Assembly: GCF_002000055.1 (NCBI RefSeq)
Contig: NZ_MVBD01000004.1
Span: forward strand, 186,001-250,000
Length of the DNA stretch: 64,000 bases
Direction of reading: 5' to 3'
Origin: Marinicella sediminis
GTDB taxonomy: Bacteria; Pseudomonadota; Gammaproteobacteria; Xanthomonadales; Marinicellaceae
Shown: piece after piece, positions 3,042-28,830 of the stretch
Numbering within the stretch: position 1 is the stretch's first letter
Layout: every line of letters begins with the position of its first letter
Program-made: the position numbers and the translations under genes
The notes under the pieces: model-generated
The model's input: only the letters and a program-made list of their open reading frames with translations
Database searches by the model: none
Told to the model about the DNA's origin: nothing

Positions 3042-3071
3042 TTTACATGGGCCAATTAATCAGCCTATAAT
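3042..3071 (+). promoter_or_regulatory. Predicted sigma-70 promoter for the EAL/DUF6502/EGTGG operon
   Basis: TTTACA (3042-3047) is separated by 18 bases from a perfect TATAAT (3066-3071). Transcription would begin near 3078, about 14 bases before the ATG at 3092, so the leader would be very short. Confidence 0.6.
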
Positions 3072-3091
3072 AAACCTGTTCATTATTGACC

Positions 3092-3778
3092 ATGTTTATG
3101 AATTTAGCAGCTTTCAAAACGACCATCGACCAAAAACTGAGTTTTCAGTTTCAGGAGATCGTGAATGCTGATAAACAAACACAGAACTGGATTGAAATGC
3201 TGTACCGCCCAGTTCATATGATGGGGCACCCCGATGTTGAACATTACTTCAAAGCCCTGAACACCCAACAAAAAGTAGACCTGGACATCAAAATATTTCA
3301 GGAAATTGAGCACGTCTTACAAACCCAAAATCCCCATAAACTCAGTGTTAACCTGATGCCCATCAGCCTCTTGAGCCCGCAATTCAGGTCTCAGTTTTGG
3401 CATTTACTTGAAAATGACATCATTGACGCTTCACGGATTTGTATCGAAATTGTAGAAACCCACTCCATGCCCCCTTTGTGCTCTGGCGCCATTGATTTGC
3501 TGCAAAAATTCAGATCCCTGGGCGGCTGGATTGCACTGGATGATTTTGGCTCTGGCTTTGCCCACTGGGAATTGTTACAGATGGGGCTGATTGACGTCAT
3601 TAAAGTTGCCAATCAAAATTTGCAACACCAGGGTGTGAATCAGTTTACCTATGGGCTATCCCGCTTTGCAGAATCGATGAACATCCAATCAGTTCTGGAA
3701 GGCGTGGAAACATTTGCCGACTTTCAATGCGGCAGAGCCCAGGGTTTTCAAAACTTCCAGGGATGGCTGTTCAGGTAA
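3092..3778 (+). CDS. EAL-domain cyclic-di-GMP phosphodiesterase
   Basis: This is a stand-alone cytoplasmic EAL domain (about 229 residues) with no sensor, GGDEF or membrane segment. EAL enzymes linearise c-di-GMP. The expected active-site residues appear in order: Glu of EMLYR (about 35), Asn of SVNL (87), Glu of IVETH (122), the Asp pair of LDDFG (150-151), Lys of VIKV (171), Glu of LEGVET (203) and Gln of FQGWLF (223). The Asp of the usual KID triplet is Ala here, but that residue is not in the standard catalytic set, so activity is plausible. A frame extension to TTG 3086 exists; ATG 3092 or 3098 is preferred. It is first in an operon with the next two genes (13- and 21-base gaps), which suggests c-di-GMP-linked control of the surface protein downstream. 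Confidence 0.85.
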   Translation: MFMNLAAFKTTIDQKLSFQFQEIVNADKQTQNWIEMLYRPVHMMGHPDVEHYFKALNTQQKVDLDIKIFQEIEHVLQTQNPHKLSVNLMPISLLSPQFRSQFWHLLENDIIDASRICIEIVETHSMPPLCSGAIDLLQKFRSLGGWIALDDFGSGFAHWELLQMGLIDVIKVANQNLQHQGVNQFTYGLSRFAESMNIQSVLEGVETFADFQCGRAQGFQNFQGWLFR

Positions 3779-3791
3779 ATGAGGAATCCAT

Positions 3792-4634
3792 ATGAGCAAT
3801 GAAGTAACAAAATCTACCAGCTTGTCATTTGATGTTTACTGGCTGGGCTTTATCAAGACCTGTCTGCGACCACTGATACGCATATTGATTAAACAAAAAG
3901 TGGAATTCAATTCATTTCAAAATCTGGTGCGTGGTTTATTTGTTGAAGAGGCCGAGAAATACATTCTTGAAACCAGTGAGAACAGCCGCGGGAAAATTTC
4001 TTCCATTGCTTATCAAACAGGTCTGGACCGACGGGAAGTATCCCGCATTTTAAAAGGCCAGGCGAGTGAAATTGAATGGGTTGAACAAAATCGTTCCAGA
4101 GAGTCAAACATATTGGATCACTGGTATTCACACCCACCTTTTTGTACCACCAAAGGAAAACCTGTTCCGCTGAAAAGAAGTGGCAAGGGCCTGTCATTTG
4201 AAACATTGACCCAAAAGTTTGGTAAAAACATCAGTCATGGACCCATACTGGAAGCATTGCTGGAATCTAACTGTGTTGAAATCATGGATGGTAAAGTGCA
4301 TTTAATCAATCGATCATTCACTCCACAAAGTGCAGCCAACCCCACCAAAATTGAAGTGGCAGCCAATTCCATCAAACGACTGACCACCACCATAGCGCAT
4401 AATTTTGAACATCAAGAAGATGCCAACTTTCAACGCAATCTGTTTTCCATCAAGATCCCCAATGAAAACAAAGCACAGTTCAGGGCTGAGATTACCGAAA
4501 TGATGCGACATCACTATCACAATACATTCATTCCTGAATTTGAAGCCATCGAACGGAATTATGAGTCAATCACAGTTCCCAAAAACACCACCCGCATTGG
4601 CTTTGGCTTTTTCTATTTTGACGAACAACTATAA
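3792..4634 (+). CDS. DUF6502-like protein, probable DNA-binding regulator
   Basis: The 280-residue protein is cytoplasmic, with no signal peptide or membrane segment. Residues about 60-95 (SSIAYQTGLDRREVSRIL) have the spacing of a winged or simple helix-turn-helix, and the middle holds a second HTH-like stretch (FETLTQKFG). From memory the overall pattern fits DUF6502, a family often placed next to genes for repeat-containing exported proteins. The start is supported by an ATGAGGA ribosome-binding site ending about 6 bases before the ATG. It sits between an EAL gene and the EGTGG-repeat gene, so a role in regulating that exported protein is reasonable but inferred. Confidence 0.6.
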   Translation: MSNEVTKSTSLSFDVYWLGFIKTCLRPLIRILIKQKVEFNSFQNLVRGLFVEEAEKYILETSENSRGKISSIAYQTGLDRREVSRILKGQASEIEWVEQNRSRESNILDHWYSHPPFCTTKGKPVPLKRSGKGLSFETLTQKFGKNISHGPILEALLESNCVEIMDGKVHLINRSFTPQSAANPTKIEVAANSIKRLTTTIAHNFEHQEDANFQRNLFSIKIPNENKAQFRAEITEMMRHHYHNTFIPEFEAIERNYESITVPKNTTRIGFGFFYFDEQL

Positions 4635-4655
4635 AAACATATTTGGAGCACACGC

Positions 4656-5312
4656 ATGAATTTTGCAGAAACTGAAGGCACCGGCATCACTCAACGGGCA
4701 GAAACGGAAGGTACTGGCATCAGCAGATCATTGACACGACTGATGACAATGGGCTTCATGCTGATGCTGATGGCGCCCATGGCGATGGCAGGTGAGCTTC
4801 GCTTATTCAGTCATGACCAGGAATATGTCAAAGGTATTTACAGTGAAGGCACTCAGGCGGTTTTTGTTGAAGGCTTGATTGTTGGTAATCAACTTCAACT
4901 GATTGCTCAGAGCTCACTGATTGATTCAACGGAAGCCTCTGATGAAGGTACCGGCGGCAAAGAAGCTTCTGATGAAGGCACTGGAGGCAAGCTGGCTTCT
5001 GATGAAGGAACCGGCGGTAGTCCGGCATCTGATGAGGGTACTGGCGGACGTCCGGCATCCGACGAAGGCACTGGCGGTAGCCCGGCATCTGACGAAGGTA
5101 CCGGTGGACGTCCGGCATCTGACGAAGGTACCGGTGGTTACACATTGTTTGACCAGGGCGACAACCAAACAACGCAACTGATTCTGAACCTCGATTGTTC
5201 CAGCAATCTGGCTTCAGGCACAGTAAATGATGGACAGCAATCCATCGACATTAACACTGTACAAGTCTACCTCAATGGACAAGTGCTGAACTGTGGACAA
5301 ACACCACAATGA
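4656..5312 (+). CDS. Exported protein with seven EGTGG decapeptide repeats
   Basis: The 218-residue protein has an unusual plan. Residues 1-25 carry two copies of an ETEGTGI motif. Residues about 26-45 are a hydrophobic, Met-rich segment (FMLMLMAPMAMA) ending in an Ala-x-Ala cleavage-like site. Then come a short beta-rich module, seven tandem repeats of ASDEGTGG[K/S/R]x (residues 93-162), and a C-terminal module with two cysteines. The start is supported by TTGGAG ending about 10 bases upstream, so the signal-like helix is genuinely preceded by a repeat-bearing tail unless ATG 4743 (MTMGF) is used instead. The repeats are acidic and glycine-rich, suggesting metal (Ca2+) binding or a flexible surface stalk; that is inference. 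I do not recognise an assigned function. Confidence 0.7.
   Translation: MNFAETEGTGITQRAETEGTGISRSLTRLMTMGFMLMLMAPMAMAGELRLFSHDQEYVKGIYSEGTQAVFVEGLIVGNQLQLIAQSSLIDSTEASDEGTGGKEASDEGTGGKLASDEGTGGSPASDEGTGGRPASDEGTGGSPASDEGTGGRPASDEGTGGYTLFDQGDNQTTQLILNLDCSSNLASGTVNDGQQSIDINTVQVYLNGQVLNCGQTPQ
4932..5141 (+). repeat. Seven tandem 30-bp coding repeats (EGTGG units)
   Basis: Each 30-base unit encodes x-A-S-D-E-G-T-G-G-x. Units differ mainly at third codon positions (GGTACC, GGCACT, GGAACC) and at the variable K/S/R and E/L/P positions. The last four alternate R and S ends, which suggests duplication of a two-unit block. Confidence 0.95.
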
Positions 5313-28792: not shown

Positions 28793-28830
28793 GACATAAA
28801 AAAGGCCTCAATTGAGGCCTTTTTTATGTC
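28793..28830. terminator. Perfect 38-bp palindromic bidirectional terminator
   Basis: A palindrome centred on CAATTG with GGCCT arms flanked by A6 and T6 runs. It terminates rpoD on the plus strand and the parvulin gene on the minus strand. Confidence 0.93.

Follow-up and report, generated by a model that had tools for sequence, protein, structure and literature searches.

The question raised by this locus is what a regulator-like protein of the DUF6502 family has to do with the repetitive, predicted exported protein encoded directly behind it. Both are encoded in a three-gene operon, together with an EAL domain protein, in the window analysed here, a stretch of 64,000 nucleotides of Marinicella sediminis DNA (contig NZ_MVBD01000004.1, positions 186,001 to 250,000). 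The DUF6502 protein scores 101.9 bits against PF20112 (gathering cut-off 27) and thus belongs to that family. We find that DUF6502 genes are commonly followed by genes for exported proteins with a short G[TS]G motif, and we propose, at about even chances, that the operon is a self-controlled signalling module in which DUF6502 recognises its partner by the G[TS]G motif. If this is correct, a large unexplained gene pair gains a function.

DUF6502 genes and their exported neighbours

Plain similarity detects the repeat protein of the window in 14, and DUF6502 in 51, of the 101 relatives, but such a comparison underestimates the spread of the partner because little beyond the G[TS]G core is kept. 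In a sample of 369 genomes of the class, 99 contain DUF6502; it also occurs in records of Nitrospirota, Desulfobacterales and Planctomycetota (mostly metagenome-assembled genomes) and on alphaproteobacterial plasmids. Loci (L numbers; genomes are given as G and families as f numbers) were collected in three sets: 63 relative loci (from the window and from 60 regions chosen with a bias toward the best matches), a class set of 80 regions picked from the DUF6502 places in the 369 genomes, and a named set consisting of the best 80 of 381 loci.

A strict G[TS]G motif occurs in 138 of the 167 signal-bearing downstream neighbours of DUF6502, against only 6 of 546 signal-bearing control open reading frames (ORFs) from these loci treated in the same way, or 6 of 441 when a stricter start rule is applied to the controls only. 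These counts cover ORFs of at least 100 residues with a hydrophobic segment, for which 167 of 182 neighbours and 546 of 1436 controls qualified. The enrichment corresponds to a p value of about 4e-109, which is only a guide, as related loci are not independent and near-identical neighbours were not merged. Four of the six control matches (L147, L187, L188, L261) are probably partners that have been displaced: DUF6502 and its motif protein are separated in L187 by a transposase-like ORF. In the named set, 73 of 80 loci have a downstream motif protein; the motif is visible as well in L206, where a contig end truncates the locus, and in L187 and L188 a motif protein lies further away. The plasmid pairs (Methylocystis, Rhizobium, Pseudoroseomonas) consist in all three cases of DUF6502 followed by DUF5666 with an overlap of 4 bases, and all three translated partners have GGTG or GGSG after the signal region; a fourth plasmid record carried no annotation at the corresponding place.

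The pairing was also followed in the reverse direction. A repeat protein from family f8 gave 38 matches in 24 of 101 relatives, and 26 of these (in 20 genomes) adjoin DUF6502. The matches elsewhere comprise those in G007 (contig C27), G045 and G091, where the regions showed no DUF6502, together with fragments, several of them at contig ends. In G057, G070 and G076 the assemblies break within the repeat gene, and copy numbers and absences are unreliable there. We regard it as nearly certain that the pairing of DUF6502 with motif proteins is real; the linkage of DUF6502 and repeat genes on which the initial annotation of this DNA had hinged is conserved far beyond the genus.

Within the open library searched, no paper naming the DUF6502 family was found, papers on DUF5666 were not about its function as judged from title or start of the abstract, the DUF6502–DUF5666 gene pair appeared as annotation without a paper on it, and no description of HetR-like proteins in Proteobacteria was found.

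Other arrangements were seen besides. The genome of the window's own organism (L071, C2:58000-76000) holds two more DUF6502 genes, each followed by a GGTG-motif protein of about 500 residues, and the one of these proteins that was tested matches DUF5666. In L087 (1593-2477) and L089 (5818-6720), a second DUF6502 gene stands beside an exported LEPLxDEELNQKY protein whose inspected portion lacks G[TS]G; this could be a different type of DUF6502 partner. ORFs with other short repeats beside DUF6502, namely GISVGD (L153, 6264-6857) and SVVGDGSN (L262, L263), likewise lacked G[TS]G in the portions inspected.

The motif shared by the partners

What the partners have in common, as judged from their sequences, is the motif and not one domain. 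DUF5666 was matched in partners from L172, L071 and L145, and an FGSxxVN-like lead of the DUF5666 partners occurs in 91 of the 138 strict partners, while those of L132 and L138 carry Calx-beta and fn3 domains. Ten partners tested for domains had been picked by hand as unusual: eight gave no Pfam match up to E 0.01, and two are only 83 and 93 residues long. In all 11 unusual partners displayed, the GTG motif follows soon after the lipobox or signal segment, and in 42 aligned lipoproteins (alignment A4, from the 73 named-locus partners) the lipobox cysteine and both glycines of G[TS]G are invariant.

Exported copies read GTG in 138, GSG in 29 and GSD in 5 of 172 cases. The copies preceding the signal segment have threonine only, with GTG in 109 and GTD in 8 of 117, a number that includes many tandem and hence not independent copies; their consensus is E-[KR]-x-GTG-I, with E at position -3 in 112, K or R at -2 in 88 and I at +1 in 99. 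This composition bears on the possibility that an enzyme encoded elsewhere recognises the motif and modifies or sorts the protein before export (for instance by O-linked modification of Thr/Ser), DUF6502 merely setting expression. The exchange of Thr and Ser in exported copies and the fact that copies both precede and follow the signal segment would suit such an enzyme, but the restriction to Thr in the pre-signal copies would not, and among the loci listed the constant neighbour is DUF6502 and no constant modifying enzyme was seen, so that we consider this explanation improbable. A graspetide (ester-linked peptide) precursor was also considered and dropped, as the loci listed have no constant neighbour enzyme.

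Two further observations concern the form of the motif. At the end of the partner in L145 (4801-5898) stand about 18 tandem copies of IRGSGVRA, which of all forms seen comes closest to the cyanobacterial RGSGR. The DUF6502 proteins themselves have G[TS]GR in the C-terminal tail (last 60 residues) in 84 of 226 cases, and this copy is possibly a built-in competitor of the partner's motif.

In the repeat protein of the window, two EGTGI motifs are followed by basic residues, a hydrophobic segment with AMA, seven ASDEGTGG decapeptides and two cysteines near the end; the translated sequence thus agrees with the initial annotation, which had placed EGTGI motifs in front of the hydrophobic segment and seven EGTGG decapeptides in the exported product. 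Tandem Repeats Finder reports 6.7 copies of 30 bases (4938-5138). The protein has no match in Pfam or NCBIfam up to E 1, and a match to PF18914 (DUF5666) was not obtained. Third codon positions in the repeats vary (C 14, T 11, A 2 of 27), and nine repeat copies comprise seven different 9-mers. This variation points to selection on the protein and not on the DNA repeat, and on this ground we reject the repeat as a DNA-level element; by eye, the repeats are also unlike the operator described below. Calcium binding by the repeats, which had been put forward as a possibility to check, finds no support: the RTX calcium-binding nonapeptide, GGxGxDx(hydrophobic)x, is absent, and the versions found in relatives (GGGTG, GSGSG, IRGSGVR) have lost the acidic residues that EGTGG contains.

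A conserved operator-like site in front of the operon

The promoter upstream of the EAL gene, earlier described as clean, matches 11 of 12 consensus bases (Table 1). Among 11 aligned loci of the genus, TTTACA is kept in nine (L060 has TTGCAT and L062 TTGCGT) and ATAAT in ten. Comparable promoter-like sites between 2700 and 5700 number four, against a shuffle mean of 5.0, and are therefore not above chance. A promoter-like site on the plus strand between DUF6502 and the repeat gene, which would bear on the separate transcription start named in the initial annotation, was searched for and none was found.

The -10 box is followed by a near-palindrome, whose form in the genus is TAAACCTGTTCAnnnTTGACCATGTTTA; L062 differs in the outer bases. 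Two candidate start codons of the EAL gene, 3086 and 3092, fall inside it. As the near-palindrome is kept in L060 although the coding start there lies further downstream, the true EAL start may, on this comparison, be the ATG at 3101.

A degenerate pattern of the operator core was found with zero mismatches in 11 of 101 genomes, once in each, and every time at this operon. The genus is represented by 18 genomes, 12 of which have a DUF6502 orthologue; 11 of these 12 have the zero-mismatch core, and in the twelfth (G006) the contig stops inside the EAL gene. The site was found in none of the six genomes without a detected orthologue, in one of which (G008) the contig ends at the repeat gene, so that the operon is perhaps cut and not absent. 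When one mismatch is allowed the core occurs at seven other places, and a reversed control pattern matches one genome. The palindrome score of the window operator taken alone is weak (22 of 28), being reached by 22 of 2000 shuffles and equalled by eight other 28-mers of the window; it is conservation, and not the palindrome score, that makes the case for the operator.

One conserved operator-like site per genome, found only here, is the trace expected of a local autoregulator, and no other DNA-binding candidate than DUF6502 is encoded in the operon. We consider it likely that DUF6502 autoregulates the operon, a conclusion that is supported though not proven. The position of the near-palindrome over the expected transcription start suggests repression. 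The earlier idea that DUF6502 is the local regulator of the repeat gene is thus supported, also by the conserved linkage.

Upstream sequences were compared in other groups as well. In Thiodiazotropha-type loci a palindrome lies 174-212 bases upstream of DUF6502 in seven of seven loci searched, and in nine loci of family f8 a promoter-like stretch is conserved. No conserved upstream block was found in seven Nitrospirota-type loci or in five other EAL-linked loci examined. The Thiodiazotropha-type palindrome reads TGGGATATAATTCCCA or close variants of it (L192, L195, L198, L200, L202, L208, L246), and is only loosely like the GGGN5CCC consensus of the sites of HetR, the cyanobacterial regulator discussed next.

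Predicted fold of DUF6502 and its possible relation to HetR

HetR is the heterocyst regulator of filamentous cyanobacteria, and PatS, HetN and PatX carry the motif RG[ST]GR (PMC4649674, PMC7761841). The PatS hexapeptide (ERGSGR) binds the hood domain of HetR as an added strand, which leads to release of DNA, and the acidic ligand residues of Anabaena HetR are E253, D270 and D278 (PMC4649674). PatX carries a Sec signal peptide and is processed by a peptidase, and HetR binds the HRGTGR peptide of PatX (PMC12756182). The balance of cyclic di-GMP (c-di-GMP) has been linked to heterocyst development (PMC8682488).

The fold of HetR has three domains (DNA-binding, flap and hood). The AlphaFold2 model of the window DUF6502 protein (71 sequences; mean predicted local distance difference test score 83.5) begins with two long helices, continues with a helix-turn-helix (HTH) unit and a second, winged-helix-like unit, and ends in two further long helices; in the last domain it shows helices 184-206 and 224-257. 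The last helix has conserved acidic residues (E251 and E258 in the window protein). Foldseek ranks the HetR chains 3qod and 4hri first and second (E 2e-3 and 1.2e-2). Five of the top ten VIA matches are HetR entries with Z 7.0-7.8 over 214-225 residues, almost the full length of the protein, the other rows shown covering 43-106, at a root-mean-square deviation of 10 A and at Z values below 8, which by VIA's own note can reflect a common arrangement; most VIA rows match HTH or winged-helix units only. With an alignment of 218 diverse DUF6502 sequences, hhalign gives HetR the two highest of 859 scores (28.1 and 27.7), aligning DUF6502 columns 121-253 with HetR 140-282. The background is formed by 656 decoys (mean 13.6, standard deviation 2.6, maximum 24.1), which are ORFs from the same loci and so include many that are probably spurious and do not represent HTH regulators as a class, and by 200 shuffles (maximum 23.6); the first rank is thus supportive but not decisive. 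The motif had been noticed before the fold was known. We conclude that the predicted fold of DUF6502 matches HetR best; a HetR-like fold is supported though not proven.

The same model bears on the possibility that DUF6502 is dedicated to the lipoprotein as its chaperone for export or as a partner that binds it in the cytoplasm, co-produced with it and using its HTH units for protein contacts. The DUF6502 and partner genes frequently overlap by 4 bases, as adjoining genes in relatives often do, and the motif stands at the start of the exported part, as would be expected of such a pair, but the HTH-like units of the model, the matches to transcription factors and the dedicated conserved near-palindrome upstream make it very improbable.

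Several observations weigh against a HetR-like DUF6502 that reads the motif. Besides the low Z values and large deviation given above, Foldseek returned no match at E 0.001 or better. No cross-match with DUF6502 was obtained for the HetR Pfam models PF03574 (Peptidase_S48) and PF18460 (HetR_C), in a search whose filters drop most weak matches, and HetR_C had 24 weak matches in 41 genomes, none of them at the place of DUF6502. Nothing was found when hhalign was run against HetR with A3, a narrower alignment built from 70 of the 80 loci in the named set, and hmmsearch gave HetR only 6.8 bits, a noise-level score tied by one shuffle. The alignments do not place E251 and E258 on D270 and D278 of HetR. 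The full RG[ST]GR of PatS, PatX and HetN is not found in the window protein, which has only the G[TS]G core, and the flanking arginines are mostly missing in partners, the nearest case being the IRGSGVR of L145. A motif neighbour was assigned by the automatic strict rule to 23 of the 63 non-redundant DUF6502 genes in relatives, to 57 of the 82 in the class set and to 66 of the 75 in the named set, numbers that are lower bounds as the rule misses signal segments plain by eye in the genus. Both DUF6502 genes in L079 and L086 and the first in L087 and L089 have no motif neighbour, and DUF5666-like partners in the window's own family have no motif in L083, L268 and L270. Finally, in the model of a DUF5666 lipoprotein the motif begins the first strand and might be structural there.

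Searches in other directions were negative too: A3, compared with the sequences of PDB chains, had no match up to E 1, and no HetR was found by tblastn of plasmids and phages together with a scan of viral contigs. Because the HetR family models were tested and gave no match, we do not count DUF6502 as a HetR protein; what we claim, at an even chance, is a mode of action like that of HetR with PatX.

An alternative is an ordinary autoregulator that senses, for example, c-di-GMP, the state of the envelope or a small molecule, the motif serving the exported protein itself, for instance as a tether or in assembly, without contacting the regulator. The operator requires only some DNA-binding protein, HTH or winged-helix units are all that most VIA rows match, some DUF6502 genes are without a motif neighbour, and in the DUF5666 model the motif leads into the first strand. 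Such a regulator would not account for the motif, and not one domain, being common to diverse DUF6502 partners, and an assembly role outside leaves the cytoplasmic copies of the three-gene type unexplained. We rate this alternative as unlikely, though it is the most probable of those considered, and prefer the reading of the motif by DUF6502.

The linked EAL gene

An EAL gene lies directly upstream of DUF6502 in 24 of the 63 non-redundant relative loci, in 0 of 82 class loci and in 0 of 75 named loci, DUF6502 genes of less than 200 residues and duplicate sequences being excluded; given how the relative loci were chosen, 24 of 63 is not a natural frequency. The EAL-linked loci span families f1, f5, f6, f7 and f9 of the order. 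The linkage of the EAL gene proposed earlier therefore stands as a conserved adjacency, but one limited to part of the order.

In all 24 EAL-linked partners the motif is found N-terminal of the hydrophobic segment, in 13 cases by script and in 11 by eye, the latter having received the script label noSP; one further partner (L151) was labelled as pre-signal but judged by eye to be mature. GTD is the only pre-signal motif in L053, L059 and L062. The pre-signal layout without an adjoining EAL gene was found in nine further loci, all of family f8.

EAL phosphodiesterases have the conserved positions E, N, E, DD, K, E and Q. In the 22 of the 24 linked EAL proteins that were aligned, the catalytic positions are kept, as judged by eye, wherever the sequence spans them, and the linked EAL protein is on this ground likely to be an active phosphodiesterase; the EAL sequence of L061 is cut by a contig end. 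The initial annotation had tied c-di-GMP turnover to export or display of the repeat protein; the wider data suggest rather a regulator that reads the motif of its own partner, to which c-di-GMP would be an added input.

Organization of the locus

The features of the locus are listed in Table 1. As initially annotated, three genes in the same direction, here confirmed to encode the EAL, DUF6502 and repeat proteins, are separated by gaps of 13 and 21 bases. Profile matches identify SecA and NUDIX genes 5' of the operon, and an opposite-strand gene 3' of it is presumably mazG. Elsewhere in the window, a perfect inverted repeat of 28 bases (28798-28825) with convergent ORFs on either side is read as an ordinary two-way terminator.

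Table 1. Features of the EAL–DUF6502–repeat protein operon in the window
Feature	Position	Strand	Basis and remarks
Sigma-70-type promoter TTTACA-18-TATAAT	3042..3071	+	11/12 consensus bases
Candidate operator, near-palindrome TAAACCTGTTCATTATTGACCATGTTTA	3071..3098	.	Overlaps end of -10 box and expected transcription start
EAL domain protein	3092..3778	+	PF00563, E 1.8e-23; predicted c-di-GMP phosphodiesterase by homology
DUF6502 protein, two HTH-like units	3792..4634	+	PF20112, E 3.6e-29; HetR-like predicted fold (model)
G[TS]G-motif partner (repeat protein), predicted exported	4656..5312	+	ORF sequence, relatives
Two EGTGI motifs, residues 7-11 and 18-22	4674..4721	+	Cytoplasmic side of predicted signal segment
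Hydrophobic signal segment, residues 29-45, AMA cleavage site then GEL	4740..4790	+	Predicted, read from sequence
Seven tandem ASDEGTGGxx decapeptides, predicted exported part	4935..5138	+	ORF sequence, repeat analysis

Proposed mechanism

We propose that DUF6502, with its HetR-like build, binds the near-palindrome over the transcription start of the operon and most likely represses it. Its ligand would be the G[TS]G motif carried by the partner; the C-terminal domain would hold it in the way that HetR holds the RG[ST]GR peptide of PatS and PatX, and the grip of DUF6502 on DNA would change as a result. That the motif is this ligand we regard as an evenly balanced proposition. In most bacteria examined the motif starts the exported part of a lipoprotein, and the regulator could meet it only before export or as a re-imported peptide. 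In the type found in the window, with usually several motif copies preceding the signal, each molecule would leave a ligand tail in the cell and place a second set of copies outside. The EAL protein would feed c-di-GMP breakdown into the same operon as an added input.

A more far-reaching version, which we regard as doubtful, holds that DUF6502 is the counterpart of HetR beyond cyanobacteria, that the exported repeats are cut into intercellular G[TS]G peptides, that the cytoplasmic copies report on the producer and that c-di-GMP is wired in. If this version were true, Gram-negative bacteria would have a widespread system of signalling by such peptides, and the switch of heterocyst patterning would belong to a much wider family.

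Comparison with known systems

Among EAL phosphodiesterases, the window EAL protein has its best NCBIfam scores with RimA and HmsP and has the catalytic positions in common with both, but these scores are far under the curated cut-offs (best 52.7 against 733), and, unlike RimA and HmsP, nearly the whole protein is EAL domain (residues 13-227 of 228). With the DUF6502–DUF5666 pairs, the window operon shares the regulator family, the gene order and the G[TS]G at the start of the exported part; it differs from them in that the partner has no DUF5666 match, motifs occur on both sides of the signal and an EAL gene lies upstream.

The comparison with HetR and PatX differs in several respects. The partner is the next gene, it often has many copies of the motif, and in the three-gene type copies also precede the signal segment; unlike cyanobacterial HetR, DUF6502 occurs in other phyla, and in the window operon together with an EAL gene. 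The likeness consists of the best fold match, a DNA-binding regulator, a palindromic target, an exported motif protein and the G-[ST]-G core (PMC7761841, PMC12756182). The PatX-type layout, with an export signal and a motif in a protein encoded beside the regulator gene, is found here as well, the signal being judged by hydrophobicity, and the pre-signal E-[KR]-x-GTG-I resembles the ERGSGR of PatS (PMC4649674). By analogy, a regulator of HetR-like build with an exported G[TS]G protein as its usual neighbour would be a close parallel to HetR and PatX.

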